Shown: positions 1-48,763, counted from the first letter of the stretch. The stretch is 64,000 nucleotides of DNA from Coralloluteibacterium stylophorae (GCF_018122625.2 NZ_JAGQFT020000004.1:248001-312000), one strand, 5' to 3'. A program made the numbers and translations. Notes: generated by a model from the letters alone, not told the origin.

Positions 1-345
1 CCAGCTCGCCGCGTGCCCCATCTGCACCGCGCCGCGCGCGACCGCATCGAACACCTCGAACGCCGGCACCGCCACGCCCGCGCCCAGCGCCTCGACCTGC
101 AGGCGGCCGCCGGAGGCGCGGCCGATCGCCTCGGCCAGCCACACTGCACCCTCGCCCAGACCGGGGAAATCCAGCGGCCACGCCAGCGCCATGCGCCAGC
201 GCAGCGCGGTGCGCGGGGCGGGCGCCGTGGCGGGGGCCGGATCGGCACCGCAGGCGGCCAGGCCGGCGGCCAGCGCCGCGCCGGCGGCGGCCTTCAGCAC
301 GCCCCGGCGGTCCAGCGGCGGCGCGCCTCGAGCGCGCTCGCTCAC
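1..345 (-). CDS. TRAP-type transporter solute-binding lipoprotein, N-terminal part (cut by window edge)
   Basis: The first 115 codons are present; the rest lies left of position 1. The N-terminus carries a twin-arginine motif (DRRGVLK, RR at 13-14), a hydrophobic stretch and a lipobox ending at Cys32 (LAAC), so the product is probably Tat-exported and lipidated. The mature start (PLDFPGLGEGA, then GGRLQVEALGAG and VQMGHAASW) matches the DctP/TakP family of periplasmic receptors for carboxylates or 2-oxoacids in tripartite ATP-independent transporters. The GTG start overlaps the uvrD stop by four bases (GTGA), implying translational coupling. The ligand cannot be told from this fragment and the membrane subunits are not in view. 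Confidence 0.8.
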   Translation of the reverse strand, partial: MSERARGAPPLDRRGVLKAAAGAALAAGLAACGADPAPATAPAPRTALRWRMALAWPLDFPGLGEGAVWLAEAIGRASGGRLQVEALGAGVAVPAFEVFDAVARGAVQMGHAASW

Positions 346-2516
346 GCCGCCTCCAGCTTGGCGTAGGCCAGCACCAGCCACTTCGGCCCGGCGTCCTCGA
401 AGTTGACGTGGATGCGCGCATGCGGGCCGGAGCCCTCGCAGTCCATCACCGTGCCGAGGCCGAACACCGGATGCGTCACCGCCTGGCCGAGCTGGAACGC
501 GGCGGCCTCGGCCAGCGCCGGCTGCGCGAAGCGGCCGGCGAACACCGGCCGCGACACGTTCACCCGCGGCCGCACCTCGTTGAGGAATTCGCCGGGGATC
601 TCGCGCAGGAAACGCGACGGCACGCCGTACATCTCCGAGCCGTGGATGCGCCGCGACTCGGCATAGGACAGCACCAGCTTCTCGCGGGCGCGGGTGATGC
701 CGACATAGGCCAGGCGACGCTCCTCCTCGAGCCGCCCCTCCTCGGCCGACTTCACGCTGGGGAACAGGCCTTCCTCGAGCCCGCCCAGGAACACGATCGG
801 GAACTCCAGGCCCTTGGCGCTGTGCAGGGTCATGAGCTGCACGCCCTCGGCACCGGCCTCCGCCTGGCCCTCGCCGGCCTCGAGCGAGGCGTAGGCGAGG
901 AAGGCGACCAGTTCCGGCATGCCCTCGTCGTCCTCGGCGCGCGCGAAGCGCGAGGCGACGGAGACCAGCTCGTCGAGGTTCTCGACCTTGGAGTCGAGCT
1001 GCCCCTTCGATTCGCCAGCGTAGTGCTCGCGCAGGCCCGAGCGGGCCATGACGTGGTCGACCTGCTCCGACAGCGTCGCGTCGCCGCAGTCGGCGCACAG
1101 CGCCTCGACCAGCTCGACGAAGCCGCGCAGCGCGTTGCGCGCGCGCGCGGCGAGCGTGCCGCCCGCGCTCTGCCGCACCGCGGCCTGCCACAGCGGCAGC
1201 GACTCCGCCCGCGCCAGGCGCCGGACCTCGTCCAGGGTCTTGCCGCCGATGCCGCGCGGCGGCGTGTTCACCGCGCGCTCGAAGGCGGCGTCGTCGGCGC
1301 GGTTGGCGACCAGGCGCAGGTAGGCCAGCGCGTCCTTGATCTCGGCGCGCTCGAAGAAGCGCAGCCCGCCATAGACGCGGTAGGGCACGCTCTCGGCGAT
1401 GAGCTGCTCCTCGTAGGCCCGCGACTGCGCATTGGAGCGGTAGAGGATGGCGCACTCGCCGAAGGCGCCGCCGTCGCGCACCCACTGGCGGATGCGCTCG
1501 ATCACGTAGCGTGCCTCGTCGATCTCGTTGTAGGCGGCGTAGAGGTCGACCGGCTCGCCCTGGCCGCTGTCGGTCCACAGTTTCTTGCCCAGGCGCGAGG
1601 GGTTGTGGGCGATGACCGCGTTGGCGGCGCCGAGGATGTTGGCGGTGGAGCGGTAGTTCTGCTCGAGGCGGATGGTGCGTGCGCCCGCGAAGTCCTCGAG
1701 GAACTGCTGCACGTTCTCGACGCGCGCGCCGCGCCAGCCGTAGATCGACTGGTCGTCGTCGCCGACCACCATCACATGCCCGCCGTCCCCGGCCAGGAGC
1801 CGCACGAAGGCGTACTGGACCGCGTTGGTGTCCTGGAACTCGTCGACCAGGATCTCGCGGAAGCGGCGCCGGTAGTGGACCAGCAGCGCCTCGCTGTCGC
1901 GCAGCAGCTCGTGCGCGCGCAGCAGCAGTTCGGCGAAGTCGACCAGGCCGGCGCGGTCGCAGCGCTCCTGGTAGGCGGCGTAGGCGCGCAGCAGGGTCTG
2001 GCCGTAGAGGTCGCCGCCGGCCGGCTGGATGTGCTGCGGACGCTTGCCCTCGTCCTTCTGCGCGTTGATCCACCACATGATCTGCCGCGGCGGGTGGCGG
2101 TCCTCGGCGATGTCGAGGTCGGCGGCCACGCGCTTGACCAGGCGCAGCTGGTCGTCGGAATCCATGACCTGGAAACCTTCCGGCAGCTTCGCCTCCTGCC
2201 AGTGCAGGCGCAGCAGGCGATGGGCGATGCCGTGGAAGGTGCCGATCCACATGCCGCGGCGCAGGCCGAGCGGGCCGGCGTCCATCTGCGCCTCGACGCG
2301 CTGGCGCATCTCGGCCGCGGCCTTGTTGGTGAAGGTCACCGCCAGGATCCCGTGCGGCGGGACGCCGACGACCTCGGTCAGCCAGGCGATGCGGTGGGTC
2401 AGGACCCGGGTCTTGCCGGAGCCGGCGCCGGCGAGCACCAGGGCGTGGCCCGGTTCGGCGCTGACGGCCTCGCGCTGCGCGGGGTTCAGCGCGTCGAGCA
2501 GGTGGGAGACATCCAT
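342..2516 (-). CDS. uvrD: DNA helicase II (UvrD)
   Basis: Superfamily 1A 3'-5' DNA helicase of 724 aa, close to the usual 720-730. It unwinds nicked or damaged DNA in nucleotide excision and mismatch repair. Visible motifs: Walker A AGAGSGKT (29-36), motif Ia TFTNKAAAEMR, Walker B/motif II LVDEFQDTN, motif III VGDDDQSIYGWRGA, motif IV EQNYRST, motif V TLHSAKGLEFP and motif VI VGITRAREKL. The C-terminal tail (HPVFGLGTVM to the end) resembles the UvrD Tudor-like domain that contacts partners such as UvrB or RNA polymerase. PcrA and Rep are less likely given this tail and the length. Its stop overlaps the start of a TRAP solute-binding gene, an unusual operon partner. Confidence 0.95.
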   Translation of the reverse strand: MDVSHLLDALNPAQREAVSAEPGHALVLAGAGSGKTRVLTHRIAWLTEVVGVPPHGILAVTFTNKAAAEMRQRVEAQMDAGPLGLRRGMWIGTFHGIAHRLLRLHWQEAKLPEGFQVMDSDDQLRLVKRVAADLDIAEDRHPPRQIMWWINAQKDEGKRPQHIQPAGGDLYGQTLLRAYAAYQERCDRAGLVDFAELLLRAHELLRDSEALLVHYRRRFREILVDEFQDTNAVQYAFVRLLAGDGGHVMVVGDDDQSIYGWRGARVENVQQFLEDFAGARTIRLEQNYRSTANILGAANAVIAHNPSRLGKKLWTDSGQGEPVDLYAAYNEIDEARYVIERIRQWVRDGGAFGECAILYRSNAQSRAYEEQLIAESVPYRVYGGLRFFERAEIKDALAYLRLVANRADDAAFERAVNTPPRGIGGKTLDEVRRLARAESLPLWQAAVRQSAGGTLAARARNALRGFVELVEALCADCGDATLSEQVDHVMARSGLREHYAGESKGQLDSKVENLDELVSVASRFARAEDDEGMPELVAFLAYASLEAGEGQAEAGAEGVQLMTLHSAKGLEFPIVFLGGLEEGLFPSVKSAEEGRLEEERRLAYVGITRAREKLVLSYAESRRIHGSEMYGVPSRFLREIPGEFLNEVRPRVNVSRPVFAGRFAQPALAEAAAFQLGQAVTHPVFGLGTVMDCEGSGPHARIHVNFEDAGPKWLVLAYAKLEAA

Positions 2517-37207: not shown

Positions 37208-38497
37208 CTAGGCCACCGCGGCGCCGAGATCGAGCGTGGCGCGGGTGCCGCGGCCGTGGCCCGAATCGATCACCAGCCGCCAGCTGAGGTGCTCGCATAG
37301 CCGCGCGATGAGGTCGAGGCCAATGCCTTCGTCGCTGCTCTCGCGCCCGCCACCGCGCGCGATGCGCGCATAGATGGCGGCCACCTCCTCCGGCGCCATG
37401 CCGTGGCCCGGATCATCGATCACCACCACGCCGGCCGGATGCAGCTCCACCCGGATACGGCCGCGATCGCTGTTCTCGATCGCGTTGCGCAGCAGGTTGC
37501 CGATCGCCGCCTGGACGATCCGCACCGGCGCGACGAGCTCGCACGATGCGTGCAGGGCCACCTCGATCTCGAGGCTCTTGCCGGTGGCCAGGAACCGGTG
37601 GTCCTCGACCAGCTCCGGCAGCAGCTCGTCGAGACGGAAGCGGTCGCTGGCCGCGCTCAGCCGTGCCGGGTCGCGGGCGAGCACGAGCAGCAGCACCACG
37701 AGCTGCTCCATCGCCCGCGCGGTGCGCGCGATCCGCTGCAGCGGTGCGCGCACCGCCTCGTCGTCGATCGGCCGCGCCAGCGCCAGGTCGGCGGCGCCGG
37801 CGACGACCGCGATCGGCGTGCGCAGCTCGTGGCTGGCGCTGTCGATGAACACGCGCTCGCGCTCCACGAACCGTTCGTTGCGCTCGAGGTAGGCGTTGAG
37901 CGCCTCGGCGATCACCACCAGCTCGCTGCTGCCCCCGCGCCCGACCTCGATGCGCTGCCCGGTGCGGTCGGGGCGCAGCTCCAGGATCCGCTCCGCCAGC
38001 GCCGCCAGCGGGCGCACCAGCCGTCGCACACCGCAGATCGAGAACAGCGCGAGCAGCAGCGCCATGAGCGCGGCCAGCAGGAGCAGGGGCGCAGCCAGCC
38101 GCCATTCGTCCTGTTCGAAGCCGTCGATGTCGAGCGCGAGCATGTAGCGGCCGTCGCCGACGAGGCGCACCAGCACCACCCACTCGTTGTCGTCGAAGAC
38201 GACGTTGTCGTGCAGCCCTGGGCCGAAGCGCATCAGCGCCGGCGGCGGCGAGGCGGCGATGGCCTGGTCGGCGTAGAAGCGCAGGCCGGTGGCCGGCGCC
38301 CATGGAGGGTTCGCACGCTCGCGCACGCGCGCCACGACATGGTCCATCTCCACGTTCAGCAGCGACTGCCACACGCGACGCTCCGCCTGTTCGTTGACCA
38401 GCAGGCCGTGCGCGGCGAGCGCCGCGCTGAGCAGCAGCACGTACAGCACCAGGCCCACGCTGATCTGGCGCTGCAGGCTACTGCGACGCCTAGCCAT
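37208..38497 (-). CDS. Sensor histidine kinase
   Basis: 429 aa. Two membrane helices (about 13-33 and 135-155) flank a roughly 100-residue periplasmic sensor, followed by a HAMP-like linker. The phospho-acceptor His223 is in DSASHELRTP. The ATPase domain has an N-box variant (IGNLLRNAIENS), DDPGHGM and GIGLDLIARLCEH. It overlaps the response regulator gene upstream by eight bases. The pair is transcribed away from the lipid glycosylation operon at 39324, so an envelope stimulus is likely, though this is inference. Confidence 0.9.
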   Translation of the reverse strand: MARRRSSLQRQISVGLVLYVLLLSAALAAHGLLVNEQAERRVWQSLLNVEMDHVVARVRERANPPWAPATGLRFYADQAIAASPPPALMRFGPGLHDNVVFDDNEWVVLVRLVGDGRYMLALDIDGFEQDEWRLAAPLLLLAALMALLLALFSICGVRRLVRPLAALAERILELRPDRTGQRIEVGRGGSSELVVIAEALNAYLERNERFVERERVFIDSASHELRTPIAVVAGAADLALARPIDDEAVRAPLQRIARTARAMEQLVVLLLVLARDPARLSAASDRFRLDELLPELVEDHRFLATGKSLEIEVALHASCELVAPVRIVQAAIGNLLRNAIENSDRGRIRVELHPAGVVVIDDPGHGMAPEEVAAIYARIARGGGRESSDEGIGLDLIARLCEHLSWRLVIDSGHGRGTRATLDLGAAVA

Positions 38498-39176
38498 GGG
38501 CGCCGCCCTCCGGTGCGGCGATGCGGTAGCCGATCCGCGGCAGGGTGTGGATCAGCTTGATTTCGAACGGCGCGTCGACCACCCGTCGCAGGTCGTACAC
38601 GTGCGAGCGCAGCGCGTCCCCGTCCGGCGGCTCGTCGCCCCAGAGCGCCTGCTCCATGCGCTGCCGGGACACAGCCGCCGGGCTGGCCTGCATCAGCAGC
38701 TCGAGCAGCTTGCGGCACGCTGGGTACAGGTGCAGGACGCGGCCGCCACGCACGACCTCGAGCGAGCCGCTGTCGTAGCGCAGGTCGCCGACCTGCAGGA
38801 CGCGCGCGCGGCGCCCGCTGGCGCGCGTCACCAGGGCCTCGAGGCGGACCTCCAGCTCCGCCATCGCGAACGGCTTGGTGAGGTAGTCGTCGGCACCGGC
38901 GCGGAAGCCGGCAATCTTGTCCGGCAGCTCGTCTCGGGCGCTCAGCATCAGCACCGGCACCACGTTGCCGGCGGCGCGCAGCCGCGCCAGTACCTCGTGC
39001 CCGTCGAGCCGCGGCAGCATCCAGTCCAGTACCACCGCGTCGTAGGCTTGGGTCGTGGCCAGGTGCAGGCCGGTCTCGCCGTCCGGGGCGGCATCGAGGA
39101 TGTGCCCCTGCGCCTCGAAGTAGGCGAAGAGGTTGGCCACCAGGCTTCGGTTGTCCTCGACGATCAACAGCCGCAC
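38490..39176 (-). CDS. OmpR/PhoB-family response regulator
   Basis: 228 aa. The receiver domain has VEDN, Asp51 (VLDWMLPRLDG) and KPF. The C-terminal winged helix has RQRMEQALWGDEPPDGDALRSHVYDLRR and IGYRI, typical of OmpR/PhoB DNA-binding domains. It precedes its kinase in an operon and starts 147 bases from the divergent GT39 gene, so the shared intergenic region is the natural place for its binding site. Confidence 0.93.
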   Translation of the reverse strand: MRLLIVEDNRSLVANLFAYFEAQGHILDAAPDGETGLHLATTQAYDAVVLDWMLPRLDGHEVLARLRAAGNVVPVLMLSARDELPDKIAGFRAGADDYLTKPFAMAELEVRLEALVTRASGRRARVLQVGDLRYDSGSLEVVRGGRVLHLYPACRKLLELLMQASPAAVSRQRMEQALWGDEPPDGDALRSHVYDLRRVVDAPFEIKLIHTLPRIGYRIAAPEGGAHG

Positions 39177-39323
39177 TGCCGCTCCTCCGCTCGCACGTCC
39201 GCCCGCCGCGGCCTACACGATAGTGGGCATGCAGCGGCGTCGGAACGGGGTCGGAACGTTCCGACAGGTTTCCGATCCCCGGCCTGCCACGCTCCCGCGG
39301 TTCTCGCTCCCTCCGGGATCCGC

Positions 39324-41048
39324 ATGCATTCCGTGGTCCGGTATTGGTCGTATCCGCGACTCGTCCTGCTCCTGCTCCTGCTGGCGCTCGCCGCGCTCGG
39401 TGCCGGGCTGGGCCTGCGCGATCCGTCGCCGCCGGACGAGCCGCGCTTCGCGCTGGCGGCCAGGCAGATGGTGGAGAGCGGGTCGTGGCTGGTCCCGCAC
39501 CGCGGCAACGAGATCTACCCGGACAAGCCGCCGATGTTCATGTGGACGATCGCGGCCGGCTACGCGTTGACCGGCGACCTGCGCGTGGCGTTCCTGCTGC
39601 CCTCGCTGCTGGCGGCGCTGGGCACGCTGTGGCTGACGGTGGACTTGGCACGCCGGCTGTGGAACCCGCGGGTGGCGGTCTGGGCCGGCTTCGCGCTGCT
39701 CGGCTGCCTGCAGTTCGGGCTGCAGGCCAAGCGTGCGCAGATCGACATGCTGCTGGTGTTCATGACCACGCTGTCGCTGTGGGGGCTGCTGCGGCATCTG
39801 CTGCGCGGACCGGACTGGCCGGCGTTCTGCCTCGGCGCCTTCGCCGCCGGGCTGGGCACGGTGACCAAGGGCGTGGGATTCCTGCCGCTCCTGGCGCTGC
39901 TGCCGTGGGCCGCGACCCGCCGCTTCGCGCCGCGCGCCACGACGACCGCCGCTGGCGGCTGGTGCTGGGCGGGGTTCGCGCTGGCCTTCGTGGCCGGCGC
40001 GGGGGTGTGGCTGGTCCCGATGCTGGTGGCGGTGGCGACCAGCAGCGATCCGGCGATGCAGGCTTACGCCGACAACATCCTCTTCAAGCAGACGGGCGAA
40101 CGCTACGCCAATGCCTGGCACCACGTGCAGCCGGCCTGGTACTACCTCGAGGTGATCTTCACCCTTTGGCTTCCGGGTGCGCTGTTGCTGCCGTGGCTGC
40201 TGCCGGCGTGGTGGCGCCGGCTGAAGCGCCGCGACGCACGGCTGGTCGTCCTGCTGGGGTGGAGCCTGCTCACCCTCCTCTTCTTCACCGCCAGTCCCGG
40301 CAAGCGGGAGGTCTACATCTTCCCGGTGCTGCCGGCGCTGTGCGTGGCCGCCGCGCCGCTGCTGCCCGGCCTGCTGCGCCGGCGAGGCGTGCACTGGATC
40401 CTGGCGGCGTTCATCGTGCTGCTCTCGCTGCTCTTCGCCGCCGCCGGCGCCAGCGGCCTGGCCGATGCGCGCTGGGCGGTGGAGAAGGCCACCGAACGCG
40501 GCATGTCCCTGGACTCGATGCATCGTCTGATGGCCTGGCTGCTCGGGCTGGGCGTCGCCGGCCTCGTGCTCCTGGCCACGTTGCGGCTCCGCCGGATCGG
40601 CGCGGCCGTGGTCAGCTTCATCGCCCTGCTGTGGACGGTCTACGGCGTCGGCCTGGCGCCGGCGGTCGACGCCAGCAGCTCGGCACGACGGCTGATGCGC
40701 GAAGCCGGTGCCCACATCGGCCCCGACGCGGAGCTCGCACTGATTGGCTGGAGGGAACAACACCTGCTGCAGGCCGACCGTCCCACGCGGACCTTCGGCT
40801 TCCGCCGCGACTGGCAGGACCAGTGGACGGACGCGACCCCGTGGCTCGCACAGGCGCCGCAGCGACGCTGGCTGTTCGTGCTCGACGAGGCGCTGAGCCC
40901 CTGCGCGGACGCGACGCAGGTCGTGGCGATCGGCGAGTCCAACCGCAGGCGCTGGCTGCTGGTGCCGGGCACGGCGATGCGGCAGGGCTGCGTGACGCCG
41001 GCGCTGGCCGACGAGATCGACGACGAGGAGGGCGCCGAGGATGAGTGA
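39324..41048 (+). CDS. ArnT/Rgt-like membrane glycosyltransferase (GT39/GT83)
   Basis: 574 aa from ATG 39324 (MHSVVRYW); earlier open frame is antisense to the regulator gene. About 10-12 membrane helices. DPSPPDEPRFALAARQMVESG is the first periplasmic loop with the catalytic acidic residues of the PMT/ArnT superfamily; GNEIYPDKPPMFMW is the next conserved element. These enzymes move a sugar from a polyprenyl phosphate to lipid A, LPS core or protein on the periplasmic face. Members include ArnT (aminoarabinose) and RgtA-D (galacturonate). First gene of a four-gene operon. Confidence 0.88.
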   Translation: MHSVVRYWSYPRLVLLLLLLALAALGAGLGLRDPSPPDEPRFALAARQMVESGSWLVPHRGNEIYPDKPPMFMWTIAAGYALTGDLRVAFLLPSLLAALGTLWLTVDLARRLWNPRVAVWAGFALLGCLQFGLQAKRAQIDMLLVFMTTLSLWGLLRHLLRGPDWPAFCLGAFAAGLGTVTKGVGFLPLLALLPWAATRRFAPRATTTAAGGWCWAGFALAFVAGAGVWLVPMLVAVATSSDPAMQAYADNILFKQTGERYANAWHHVQPAWYYLEVIFTLWLPGALLLPWLLPAWWRRLKRRDARLVVLLGWSLLTLLFFTASPGKREVYIFPVLPALCVAAAPLLPGLLRRRGVHWILAAFIVLLSLLFAAAGASGLADARWAVEKATERGMSLDSMHRLMAWLLGLGVAGLVLLATLRLRRIGAAVVSFIALLWTVYGVGLAPAVDASSSARRLMREAGAHIGPDAELALIGWREQHLLQADRPTRTFGFRRDWQDQWTDATPWLAQAPQRRWLFVLDEALSPCADATQVVAIGESNRRRWLLVPGTAMRQGCVTPALADEIDDEEGAEDE

Positions 41049-41108
41049 CACGTGCGCGACGCGGCGGACACCTCAGGCAGGCCGCGACGCGGCCGGACGA
41101 CGCGTCGC

Positions 41109-42083
41109 ATGAGGCGCGTCCTCGTCACCGGCGCAGCCGGCTTCATCGGCGCGCACGTCGCACGCGCCCTGCAGGCGCGCGGCGACGCCGTCTTCGGCCT
41201 CGACAGCTTCGATGCCTACTACGCCCCGTCGCTCAAGCGCGACCGCGTGGCTGCGCTGTGCCCGGACCTGCCCGTGCGGGTGCTCGACATCGCCGATGCC
41301 GCCGCGCTGGATGCCGCGGTCGACGAGGTCGGGCCGACCCACCTCGTCCACCTCGCCGCACAGGCCGGGGTGCGCTACTCCATCACGCGCCCGCAGGCCT
41401 ACCTGCAGGCCAACCTGGTCGGCTTCGGCAACGTCATCGAGGCCTGCCGGCGGCACGCGGTGCGGCACCTGGTGTACGCCTCGTCGTCCTCGGTCTACGG
41501 CGCCGGCACCACGACCCCGTTCTCGGAGGACCAGCGCGTCGACGCGCCGCTGTCGCTGTACGCGGCGACCAAGCACGCCAACGAACTGATGGCGCACAGC
41601 TACGCGCACCTCTATCGCATCCCGACGACCGGCCTGCGCTTCTTCACGGTGTACGGGCCGTGGGGGCGCCCGGACATGGCGCCGCTGCTGTTCGCCCGCG
41701 CGGTGCTCGCCGGACGCCCGATCCAGGTCTTCAACCACGGCCGCCTGCGCCGCGACTTCACCCACATCGACGACATCGTCGGCGGCGTGCTGGGCGCGCT
41801 GGACCATCCGCCGGACGATGCCGGCGTGGCGCCGCACCGCCTGTTCAACCTCGGCAACAGCGTGCCGGTGGAGCTCGAGCGCTTCATCGCGGTGATCGAG
41901 CAGGCCGCCGGCCGCGCCGCTGTGAAGGACTACCGCCCGATGCAGCCCGGCGACATGCTCGAGACCGCTGCGAACACCGCCGCCGCCGAGGCGGCCTTCG
42001 GCTTCCGCGCGGGGATCGCGATCGAGGAGGGCCTGCCCGGCGTGGTCGAGTGGTGCCGCACGTACTACGGAGAGGATGCATGA
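41109..42083 (+). CDS. NAD-dependent sugar epimerase, UDP-glucuronate 4-epimerase-like
   Basis: 324 aa from ATG 41109; a GTG at 41052 would add 19 unlikely residues. Extended SDR: VLVTGAAGFIGAHVA binds NAD, SSSSVYG and YAATKHANE supply the catalytic Ser and Tyr/Lys. The DSFDAYYAPSLKRDR stretch after the first strand is characteristic of UDP-glucuronate 4-epimerases, which make UDP-galacturonate. Overlaps the next gene by four bases (ATGA). With its neighbours it probably provides the nucleotide sugar for lipid-linked transfer. Confidence 0.85.
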   Translation: MRRVLVTGAAGFIGAHVARALQARGDAVFGLDSFDAYYAPSLKRDRVAALCPDLPVRVLDIADAAALDAAVDEVGPTHLVHLAAQAGVRYSITRPQAYLQANLVGFGNVIEACRRHAVRHLVYASSSSVYGAGTTTPFSEDQRVDAPLSLYAATKHANELMAHSYAHLYRIPTTGLRFFTVYGPWGRPDMAPLLFARAVLAGRPIQVFNHGRLRRDFTHIDDIVGGVLGALDHPPDDAGVAPHRLFNLGNSVPVELERFIAVIEQAAGRAAVKDYRPMQPGDMLETAANTAAAEAAFGFRAGIAIEEGLPGVVEWCRTYYGEDA

Positions 42084-42820
42084 CGCAGGACGCAGCCCCG
42101 GCGCTGTCGGTGGTGGTGCCGGTCTTCAACGAGGCCGACAACGTGCGGCCGCTGGTCGGGGAGATCGTGACGGCGCTGCGCGGACGGATCGGGTTCGAGA
42201 TCGTCTACGTGGACGACGCCAGCCGTGATGGCACCCTCGCTATACTGGATGCGCTCCGCGCCGAGGTCCCGGAGCTGCGCGTGCTCGTCCATGCCAGCCA
42301 GTCCGGGCAGAGCACCGCGATCCGCACCGGTGTGCGCGCCGCCCGCGGCGCCTGGATCGCCACGCTCGATGGCGACGGCCAGAACGACCCCGCCGACATC
42401 CCCCTGCTCCTGCGCGAGCGCGACGCCGCGCCGGCGACGCTCAAGCTCTTCGCCGGCTGGCGGACCGAGCGCCGCGACAGCGGCAGCAAGCGCTGGGCCT
42501 CGAAGTGGGCGAACGCCATCCGTAGCCGCCTGCTGCGCGACGATACGCCCGACACTGGCTGCGGCATCAAGCTGTTCGAACGCGAGGCCTTCCTCGACCT
42601 GCCCTACTTCGACCACATGCACCGCTTCCTCCCCGCCCTCATGCAGCGCGCCGGCTGGCAGGTGAAGTCGGTCCCGGTGCGCCATCGACCGCGCGCCGCA
42701 GGCTGCTCCAAGTACAACAACCTGCAGCGCGCCTGGGTCGGCCTGCGCGACCTGCGCGGCGTGGCCTGGCTGATCGCTCGCAGCCGGCGCACTGCGGTTC
42801 GCGAGCTGGGGGCGCCATGA
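42080..42820 (+). CDS. Polyprenyl-phosphate glycosyltransferase (GT2, DPM/ArnC/RgtE-like)
   Basis: 246 aa. LSVVVPVFNEADNVRPLV opens the GT-A fold; YVDDASRDGT and TLDGDGQNDPADIP are the nucleotide- and metal-binding elements; FHRFLPAL-like HRFLPALMQRAG and RHRPRAAGCSKYN follow, as in dolichyl-phosphate-mannose-synthase relatives. No C-terminal membrane helices, so a soluble or peripheral enzyme that loads a sugar onto polyprenyl phosphate at the cytoplasmic face. ATGA overlaps at both ends couple it to the epimerase and the LABN gene. Confidence 0.9.
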   Translation: MTQDAAPALSVVVPVFNEADNVRPLVGEIVTALRGRIGFEIVYVDDASRDGTLAILDALRAEVPELRVLVHASQSGQSTAIRTGVRAARGAWIATLDGDGQNDPADIPLLLRERDAAPATLKLFAGWRTERRDSGSKRWASKWANAIRSRLLRDDTPDTGCGIKLFEREAFLDLPYFDHMHRFLPALMQRAGWQVKSVPVRHRPRAAGCSKYNNLQRAWVGLRDLRGVAWLIARSRRTAVRELGAP

Positions 42821-43149
42821 ACCAGGAAATCGTCTGGCTCGGATTCACCGGCCTGCACGTCACGCCGTGGAAGCTGATCGGCTACACCGGCGCGGCCCTG
42901 TTCGGCGGGCGCTGGCTGGTGCAGTTCCTGGCCTCGCGCCGGGCCGGGCGGCCGGTGATCCCGCGCCTGTTCTGGTACATGAGCGTGGTCGGCAGCCTGA
43001 TGACGCTGAGCTACTTCCTGTTCTCGGCGAAGCGCGACTCCGTCGGGGTGCTGCAGAACCTGTTTCCGGCCTTCACCGCCGCCTACAGCCTCTGGCTCGA
43101 CATCCGCAACCGCGGGGCGCGCCCCCGCGACCCCGCCACGCCCGACTAG
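42817..43149 (+). CDS. Small membrane protein with lipid-A-biosynthesis N-terminal (LABN) domain
   Basis: 110 aa, about three hydrophobic helices. WKLIGYTGAALFGGRWLVQFLASRR (in parts) and IPRLFWYMSVVGSLMTLSYF are the LABN hallmark, the membrane domain found before some lipid-A-disaccharide synthases and as a stand-alone protein. Stand-alone copies sit beside polyprenyl-phosphate GT2 genes, and a flippase or accessory role has been suggested; not proven. Last gene of the operon, overlapping the GT2 gene by ATGA. Confidence 0.88.
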   Translation: MNQEIVWLGFTGLHVTPWKLIGYTGAALFGGRWLVQFLASRRAGRPVIPRLFWYMSVVGSLMTLSYFLFSAKRDSVGVLQNLFPAFTAAYSLWLDIRNRGARPRDPATPD

Positions 43150-43891: not shown

Positions 43892-45286
43892 ATGCCCGAG
43901 CACGCCTGTGACCCCGCCGACCCCGCCGCACTCGCGATCATCGGCGGGGGCGCCGCCGGCGTCATCGCGGCGCTGCATGCGCTGGCGCTGGCTCCTGCGG
44001 GTGCGCGCATCGTGCTGGTGGAGGCCGCGGGCGAGCTCGGCGCCGGCGTCGCCTACGCCGGCGACCGGCCGGAGCACCTGCTCAACGTCGTTGCCGGGCG
44101 CATGAGCGCGTTCCCGGAGCGGCCGAACGACTTTGTCGCGTATCTGCTCGAGCAGGACCCGGTCGGCACCGCGACCGCGGCCGATCTCGCCAACCGCTTC
44201 GTGCCACGCCCCTCGTACCGCCGCTACCTGCAGGCGCGGCTCACGGCCGCGCGTGCGGCGAGCCCCGCGCGCCTGGAGGTCCACCGCGGGCGGGCGATCG
44301 CGCTGCGCCACGGCGGTGCGACCCTCTCGATCGAACTCGAATCCGGCGCCCGGCTGCGCGCGACCGGCGCGATCCTCGCGCCCGGCAACCGCCCGCGCCC
44401 GCTGCCGGGCACGCGCGATCCCGACGTGCCGCCCGCGCGGCTGGTCGAGGCCTGGGACGAGGCCGCGCTGGCGGGCATCCCCGAAGAGGCCGCGGTGCTG
44501 GTGGTTGGCGCGGGCCTGAGCATGGTCGACGTCGCCCTCGGCCTCGACGCCCGCGGCCACCGCGGGCCGCTGCACGTCCTGGCGCGGCACGCCCTGCTGC
44601 CGCTGCCGCATACCGACCGCGGGCATCAGGGCGACGGGATCGACGCCTCGGCGCTCGTCGGCCGTCCGCTGCGTGCGGTCGTGCGCGGTCTGCGCGGCCT
44701 GGCCGGGGAGGCGGTCCGCCAGGGGCGGCCGTGGCAGGACGTGCTCGACGCGGTGCGTCCGCACGTGCAGAGCATCTGGCGCGGGTTCGAGGACGCCGAC
44801 CGCCGCCGCTTCCTGCGCCACGCGCGTCGGCACTGGGACATCCACCGCCACCGCATCGCGGCCCCGGCGCAGGCGCTGATCGCGCGCGACCTCGCCGGCG
44901 GGCGCCTCCGCCTGCATCGCGGCCGGCTGCGCCACCTCACTCGCATCGACGGCGGCGTGCGGGCCGAGGCGGAGGGTTGCGGAGGGCCGTTCGCGCTGGA
45001 CGTGACCCACGTGGTCAACGCCACCGGCATCGCCGCCGACCTGCGCGACACGGCGGACCCGCTGCTCGCCCAGCTCCTCGCCGACGGCATGGTGCAGCCG
45101 GACCCGCTCGGCCTCGGCCTGGCCACCGACCTCGACGGCCGCCCCCTCGACGCCCGCGGACGTGCCGCGCCGAACCTGCGCCTGCTCGGCAGCCTGCGCA
45201 TCGGCACGCTCTGGGAGAGCACCGCCGTGCCCGACCTGCGCATGCAGGCGGCCGACGCGGCTCGGGCGCTGCTGGTGCCGCGCTAG
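43892..45286 (+). CDS. FAD/NAD(P)-binding oxidoreductase (HI0933/YdhS-like)
   Basis: 464 aa. N-terminal FAD-binding Rossmann motif IIGGGAAGVIAALHA, then LLNVVAGRMSAFPERPNDFVAYL, a signature of the FAD_NAD_binding_9 family, and a second Rossmann loop VLVVGAGLSMVDVALGL. HVVNATGIAADLR is the closing FAD contact. Relatives include E. coli YdhS and SidA-like proteins; the substrate is unknown. It ends 30 bases before crbS, so the two may be co-transcribed, which makes a link with acetate metabolism possible but unproven. Confidence 0.83.
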   Translation: MPEHACDPADPAALAIIGGGAAGVIAALHALALAPAGARIVLVEAAGELGAGVAYAGDRPEHLLNVVAGRMSAFPERPNDFVAYLLEQDPVGTATAADLANRFVPRPSYRRYLQARLTAARAASPARLEVHRGRAIALRHGGATLSIELESGARLRATGAILAPGNRPRPLPGTRDPDVPPARLVEAWDEAALAGIPEEAAVLVVGAGLSMVDVALGLDARGHRGPLHVLARHALLPLPHTDRGHQGDGIDASALVGRPLRAVVRGLRGLAGEAVRQGRPWQDVLDAVRPHVQSIWRGFEDADRRRFLRHARRHWDIHRHRIAAPAQALIARDLAGGRLRLHRGRLRHLTRIDGGVRAEAEGCGGPFALDVTHVVNATGIAADLRDTADPLLAQLLADGMVQPDPLGLGLATDLDGRPLDARGRAAPNLRLLGSLRIGTLWESTAVPDLRMQAADAARALLVPR

Positions 45287-45316
45287 ACTCGACGCGTCGT
45301 ACCGGGGAGCGCACGT

Positions 45317-48759
<3,443 letters not shown>

Positions 48760-48763
<4 letters not shown>

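Follow-up and report, generated by a model that had tools for sequence, protein, structure and literature searches.

The locus and the linkage of its genes

The window, a stretch of 64,000 nucleotides from Coralloluteibacterium stylophorae (NZ_JAGQFT020000004.1:248001-312000), contains a putative operon of four genes whose products are predicted to make and use lipid-linked galacturonic acid (GalA). The host genome (4.0 Mb, 29 contigs) belongs to the Lysobacterales, and its near relatives include Vulcaniibacterium, Stenotrophomonas and Xanthomonas. All four genes named in the original prediction were found on the plus strand and were supported by Pfam and PDB matches. Their arrangement, with the basis of each assignment, is as follows.

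39324..41048, plus strand: ArnT-like GT39/GT83 polyprenyl-phosphate-sugar transferase, 574 amino acids, clade A (PMT_2, ArnT model, PDB ArnT, key residues, tree)
41109..42083, plus strand: UDP-glucuronate (UDP-GlcA) 4-epimerase-class short-chain dehydrogenase/reductase, 324 amino acids (PDB 5u4q and 6zl6 matches, aligned residues)
42080..42820, plus strand: GT2, predicted undecaprenyl-phosphate GalA synthase, 246 amino acids (PF00535, ArnC structures, hydropathy)
42817..43149, plus strand: LAB_N membrane protein, 110 amino acids, predicted translocase subunit (PF07578, AlphaFold model, co-occurrence, VTT replacement)

Three of the four genes had been said to overlap by ATGA, and two such junctions do link the epimerase, GT2 and LAB_N genes, one between the epimerase stop and the GT2 start (42080-42083) and the other between the GT2 stop and the LAB_N start (42817-42820). 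The GT39 gene, which begins with ATG at 39324, is separated by 60 nt from the epimerase gene, whose start was placed at 41109 rather than at 41052, where the mechanical open reading frame (ORF) opens with GTG. The span 39324-43149 omits a divergent two-component system (37208-39176) and the promoter boxes (39239-39276), which are described below.

Co-occurrence was assessed in 199 other genomes of the order, with presence sets copied by hand from result tables and counts that ignore phylogeny. GT2, GT39 and LAB_N were jointly present in 98 of the 199 genomes and jointly absent from 94. For the pair GT2 and GT39, 98 genomes had both, 3 and 4 had a single gene and 94 had neither (p = 1e-47, phylogeny not accounted for), and for GT2 and LAB_N the corresponding counts were 101, 0 and 2, and 96 (p = 1e-55, likewise without account of phylogeny). 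The sole sampled member of the window's own family that lacked GT2, GT39 and LAB_N was genome G126, which offers a natural control for analysis of lipopolysaccharide (LPS).

A survey of synteny, a check that accompanied the original prediction, found the order epimerase-GT2-LAB_N conserved in 41 loci, a few of which represent the same genome twice. An epimerase of the window's class was present in 94 of the 101 genomes that carry GT2, and a second epimerase class was present in many genomes. LAB_N usually lies directly 3' of GT2, about 16 nt away. Elsewhere in the order there are many families in which the two genes are unlinked and yet co-occur. Outside the order, linkage to the epimerase was seen in loci L265, L269, L275 and L277. 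Chance adjacency of the genes was rejected because co-occurrence and synteny hold across the order. Co-occurrence, synteny and family matches indicated, as predicted, that the epimerase, the ArnC-like GT2, the ArnT-like GT39 and LAB_N belong to a single linked module, and that the four genes constitute one pathway.

Two of the loci outside the order, in another gammaproteobacterial family, hold the same module and differ in layout. L277 has epimerase-GT2-LAB_N-GT39 in one row, and L269 has epimerase-GT2-GT39 with a double LAB_N gene nearby.

The aminoarabinose (Arn) system was rejected because ArnA was absent: no match over the cut-off was found in the whole genome. The claim that no arnA/B/D-like genes are present therefore holds genome-wide for ArnA, and for ArnB and ArnD, which were looked for only by inspecting the locus, it extends to the locus; an arnBCADTEF context with ArnA was not found. 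Genes of the UDP-glucose dehydrogenase family lie elsewhere in the window genome. Downstream of LAB_N are small ribosomal-protein-like ORFs, followed at 43892-48763 by genes for a FAD-NAD(P)-binding protein and a long membrane protein with kinase and receiver-like sequence, all of which lie outside the pathway.

The epimerase and the two glycosyltransferases

The epimerase matched a Klebsiella structure (PDB 5u4q, E = 6e-99) and the UDP-GlcA 4-epimerase UGAepi of Bacillus cereus (PDB 6zl6, E = 7e-41). GalE- and WbpP-type identities were rejected because those matches were far weaker. Arg185 and the Thr/Ser network of UGAepi have a role in holding the substrate carboxylate (PMC12338863). When aligned with UGAepi, the window epimerase matched at the Ser-Ser-Ser, the catalytic Tyr/Lys (YxxxK), Thr178 and the Arg185 equivalent (GPWGRPDMA); the carboxylate-binding residues (Ser/Thr-Ser-Ser, Arg185) and the catalytic Tyr/Lys are common to it and the 6zl6 and 5u4q enzymes. 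It differs from the Bacillus enzyme at Thr126, which is Ser in the window. The protein thus very probably belongs to the UDP-GlcA 4-epimerase class, and its activity is predicted on that basis.

GT2 matched PF00535 (E = 7e-26), and its best PDB matches were the ArnC structures 9hwj, 9bhc and 8vxh (3e-20 to 4e-19). A hydropathy scan found no transmembrane (TM) segment. It is unlikely that GT2 takes some other UDP-sugar (GlcA, glucose or N-acetylhexosamine) while the epimerase serves another glycan. Such an assignment would be consistent with the GT2-LAB_N-GT39 sets that lack an epimerase in other lineages, with the second epimerase class, and with the galacturonamide reported in X. oryzae pv. 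oryzicola (PMC8042644). It is opposed by the gene overlaps here and the gene order kept in 41 loci, by the epimerase linkage outside the order, and by the lipid-carrier-linked galacturonide detected in X. campestris in 1990 (PMC8042644). GalA is the sugar we favor.

GT39 matched PMT_2 in Pfam (E = 6e-14) and PDB ArnT 5ezm (E = 3.6e-11), and its only NCBIfam match was the ArnT model (E = 1.7e-27); given that its score lies below the cut-off of that model, it was classed as ArnT-like and not as ArnT. The ArnT residues for the carrier phosphate and the lipid A phosphate are D55/R58, E84, K85, D158/K203, R270 and Y345 (PMC8306577). The GT39 equivalents D38/R41, K68, D141/K182, R260 and Y331 were invariant among 68 GT39 sequences, and at the position of ArnT E84 the window GT39 and every sequence outside clade A have Asp, most clade A members having Glu.

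In a maximum-likelihood tree, the window GT39 fell within a clade, designated A, with support of 100/99. Clade A GT39s are mostly beside the two-component system, every GT39 that adjoins that system falls in clade A, and other GT39s are never beside it. The clade A gene of a Xanthomonas-type locus (L099) is followed by PAP2 (LpxE-type) and EptA genes, and the clade B GT39 of two further Xanthomonas-type loci (L113 and L117) adjoins an O-antigen ligase and other glycosyltransferases. In the window genome a single GT39, the clade A copy, scored better than 1e-20; a more distant ArnT-like gene is also present. Both clades occur in X. arboricola and X. melonis, and in relatives one or two GT39 paralogues appear to draw on the GT2/LAB_N donor module. 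Xanthomonas sp. GPE 39, which we take to belong to clade 1 of the genus, has clade B only and lacks clade A; if that placement holds, clade B would explain the retention of donor genes in clade 1 Xanthomonas, which are reported to lack arnT.

The gene neighborhoods and residues of GT39 also bear on the acceptor. The GT39 families include protein O-mannosyltransferases by Pfam naming, and the acceptor might be a protein, an exopolysaccharide or another envelope glycan. That an acceptor other than LPS is used is very improbable, given that the ArnT model is the sole NCBIfam match, that genes of the PAP2 and EptA types accompany clade A, and that clade B stands beside O-antigen ligase. Within LPS, an Rgt-like pathway would place GalA on sugar hydroxyls (3-deoxy-D-manno-octulosonic acid (Kdo), mannose or dephosphorylated lipid A) and not on phosphate. 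The rhizobial RgtD and RgtF have been described as GalA transferases and RgtE as a bactoprenyl-phosphate-GalA transferase (PMC7663294), and the PAP2 (LpxE-type) gene beside clade A GT39 would suit that route. We nevertheless regard it as improbable, since the ArnT acceptor-phosphate residues are invariant and the known GalA of Xanthomonas is phosphate-linked (PMC8042644), both of which place the chemistry nearer to ArnT than to Rgt. The Rgt parallel drawn in the original prediction was thus retained for the logic of the pathway and not for its chemistry, in which sugar would be placed onto phosphate instead of GalA onto sugar positions.

LAB_N and its position in the operon

LAB_N matched PF07578 with 63.9 bits against a gathering cut-off of 26.7, and its AlphaFold model consists of three long helices (mean pLDDT 87). 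Its surroundings were examined in a sample of 60 GT2 loci outside the order, from about 55 families of Pseudomonadota. LAB_N was near GT2 in 33 of these loci, a VTT gene (PF09335, DedA/TVP38) in 12 and both in 0 (hypergeometric 1.2e-5, phylogeny not accounted for). When all 200 loci were pooled (order, related and outside), LAB_N was near in 120, VTT in 16 and both in 0. The LAB_N or VTT gene is mostly directly 3' of GT2 and is followed by GT39. The VTT/DedA gene occupies the LAB_N slot in outside loci L234, L235, L239, L243, L254, L268, L271, L274, L282, L285, L287 and L288 and also lies beside GT2 in L213, L214, L216 and L217; four of the VTT proteins were confirmed by Pfam. The DedA family includes undecaprenyl-phosphate (Und-P) flippases (PMC10127716, PMC12893004). 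Because a protein of that superfamily takes the same slot in other lineages, a role for LAB_N in translocation, as originally predicted, is likely, with flipping and transport themselves being predicted activities.

LAB_N might instead anchor or activate a soluble GT2 in the membrane, as DPM2 and DPM3 do for DPM1. The absence of a TM segment from GT2, unlike ArnC-type enzymes, and the position of LAB_N directly behind GT2 would both agree with such a function. We consider it the less likely one, as VTT/DedA genes, whose family includes Und-P flippases (PMC10127716, PMC12893004), hold the slot in 12 of the 60 outside loci, none of which also has LAB_N near GT2, and as LAB_N still co-occurs with GT2 in the many families of the order in which the two are unlinked. 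We therefore favor, with some reserve, a LAB_N that moves Und-P-GalA outward or returns Und-P, either of which would fit.

When the LAB_N profile was searched against the PDB, the sole match up to E = 10 was 4x5m, presumably a SemiSWEET, at a weak E of 0.5. Foldseek of the model gave SWEET and SemiSWEET among weak matches, none of them below 0.001. Two ORFs, L090:10218-10880 and L269:10657-11448, contain two LAB_N domains each, and the MtN3_slv match to a double LAB_N was 0.045. Such doubled ORFs resemble SWEETs, which are doubled SemiSWEETs, and are what a dimeric working unit would lead one to expect. LAB_N has been grouped with PQ-loop proteins, including MPDU1 (PMC3281891), which is required for the use of dolichol-phosphate sugars; its likeness to SemiSWEET is only suggestive.

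Regulation, proposed pathway and known systems

On the 5' side of GT39 are the following genes and sites.

37208..38497, minus strand: sensor histidine kinase, RaxH/ColS type (HisKA and HATPase_c, two TM segments, ExxE)
38490..39176, minus strand: response regulator of the OmpR class and RaxR/ColR type, transcribed divergently from GT39 (Response_reg and Trans_reg_C)
39239..39256, minus strand: putative response-regulator box toward the regulator gene, TTCCGAC-N4-TTCCGAC, 0 mismatches (kept in homologous intergenic regions)
39259..39276, plus strand: putative response-regulator box toward GT39, TTCCGAC-N4-TTCCGAT, 1 mismatch (kept in homologous intergenic regions)

Both hallmarks of RaxRH/ColRS systems were found, namely an ExxE near the second of the two TM segments (EQDE, in the sequence FEQDEWR just before it) and a divergent position beside arnT, lpxE or eptA, in the window beside the ArnT-like gene. 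The kinase is mostly 48-54% identical to kinases beside other clade A GT39 genes, and the regulator is about 71-78% identical to the regulators beside most of them. Regulators of the same type lie beside the GT39, PAP2 and EptA genes of L099.

A tandem box of 11-bp period, TTCCGAC-N4-TTCCNAC, is common to the intergenic regions that separate regulator and GT39. Across 15 loci the mean best mismatch was 1.47 toward GT39 and 2.40 toward the regulator, compared to 5.2 and 5.4 in shuffles, a comparison that is partly circular because some of these intergenic regions served to define the pattern. The genome count, the sites upstream of GT2 and the loci without a two-component system are free of that circularity. 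The window contains 2 matches against 0.04 expected, and the genome contains 7 with at most 1 mismatch against 2 for a reversed control pattern. A looser pattern occurred 13.5 times per 100 kb at loci with the two-component system, 0.29 times at GT2-only loci and 0 times at GT39-only loci without the system. The box is directly 5' of GT2 in L060, L068, L147, L202 and L210, and it also precedes the PAP2 gene in L099 and the EptA gene in L185. These results suggest that the RaxRH/ColRS-type system probably controls the operon from the common promoter, by way of the tandem box; the sites are conserved, and the regulator would bind them.

The only other box pair in the genome, on contig 5, precedes a second ArnT-like gene and an apparent broken regulator remnant, which share it. 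In this locus (L295, C5:108094-111111; region read within about 1.5 kb), the ArnT-like gene (3-1340, minus strand; PDB ArnT, 2.6e-25) is divergent from a RaxR-like fragment (about 1660-1793, plus strand) that stops early. It looks like a decayed copy of the regulator/transferase arrangement.

Taken together, the families, residues and linkage make it reasonably probable that the operon makes and uses lipid-linked GalA. The epimerase would, with high confidence, convert UDP-GlcA to UDP-GalA. The soluble-looking GT2 would then likely place GalA on Und-P at the cytoplasmic face. LAB_N, probably as a SemiSWEET-like dimer, may carry Und-P-GalA outward or return Und-P, and with similar, somewhat better than even, confidence the periplasmic GT39 would move GalA to a phosphate group, either in the LPS inner core (on Kdo or a hexose) or on lipid A, by a reaction like that of ArnT with aminoarabinose, which would yield GalA-1-phosphate diesters. 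The two-component system would switch the operon via the tandem box. The most likely product is therefore LPS that carries GalA, taken from Und-P, on a phosphate of its inner core or of lipid A, with sugar, acceptor and flippase step all deduced. The route from UDP-GlcA to LPS held in outline, its mechanism being nearer to ArnT and its substrate and acceptor remaining predictions.

This proposal fits the chemistry of Xanthomonas LPS. In the core of X. campestris 8004, one galacturonyl is linked via phosphate on Kdo and another galacturonyl phosphate is on mannose, and ArnT-like transfer in Xanthomonas was called a tempting speculation (PMC8042644). Phosphate-linked GalA has been known there for about two decades, only chemically, and the same review assigns no genes to it; the locus would supply a full, testable gene set for the galacturonyl-phosphate of Xanthomonas-like LPS.

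Several points weigh against the proposal. The activities of all four proteins are predicted. Neither GT39 (96 bits against 567 for ArnT) nor GT2 (77 bits against 529 for ArnC) reached the NCBIfam equivalog cut-off, and the C-terminal TM helices of ArnC were not found in GT2 by hydropathy. GT2 and GT39 are also found without a linked epimerase in other lineages, which leaves room for other sugars in part of the wider family. The statistics of co-occurrence and of LAB_N/VTT exclusion ignore phylogeny, and the LAB_N-SemiSWEET relation is weak. The Kdo kinase family (PF06293) was dropped as an acceptor marker, since it is present in 196 of 200 genomes of the order, the window genome included, and at that near universality does not discriminate among acceptors.

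More tentatively, LAB_N proteins could be translocases for polyprenyl-phosphate monosaccharides in general, equivalent in bacteria to MPDU1 and exchangeable with VTT/DedA proteins, and the operon could be the missing pathway behind the galacturonyl-phosphates in the LPS of xanthomonads, under RaxRH/ColRS control via the tandem TTCCGAC box. The exclusive LAB_N-or-VTT slot offers a handle on how lipid-linked sugars cross membranes, which is unsettled in bacteria and eukaryotes.

Relative to the open-access literature searched, UDP-GalA as the donor of the cluster, the second GT39 clade, the exclusive LAB_N/VTT slot and the promoter box are new. A search of that literature for polyprenyl-phosphate-GalA genes outside rhizobia found nothing useful. 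The cluster and the RaxRH-linked arnT locus were already known: Stewart and Ronald (2021) described a Xanthomonas cluster of epimerase, ArnC-like and LpxB-N-domain genes (PXO_RS22260/22265/22270) with donor sugar and product unspecified, noted linkage of an ArnC-like gene and LAB_N to arnT in other species, and reported that Xanthomonas of clade 1 have retained the donor genes although they lack arnT (PMC8306577). The window shares with that cluster its gene types, their order and a two-component system divergent from the ArnT-like gene, and differs in having all parts in one locus. To their account of clade 1 we add the second GT39 clade found in GPE 39, which could explain the retained donor genes, and the proposed conserved promoter box.

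With ArnT, ArnC and ArnE/F the window system has in common the GT39 fold family and residues, an ArnC-like GT2 acting on Und-P, a small membrane translocator and two-component control. It differs in its presumed uronic acid in place of cationic aminoarabinose, in the lack of ArnA, in LAB_N instead of ArnE/F, in a GT2 that has no C-terminal TM segments, and in scores below the family cut-offs. With the Rgt system of Rhizobium and Mesorhizobium (RgtD, RgtE, RgtF) it shares the logic of cytoplasmic polyprenyl-phosphate-GalA and periplasmic transfer of GalA to LPS. In contrast to Rgt, its acceptor is probably a phosphate, and the epimerase, LAB_N and the sensor system are in one locus.

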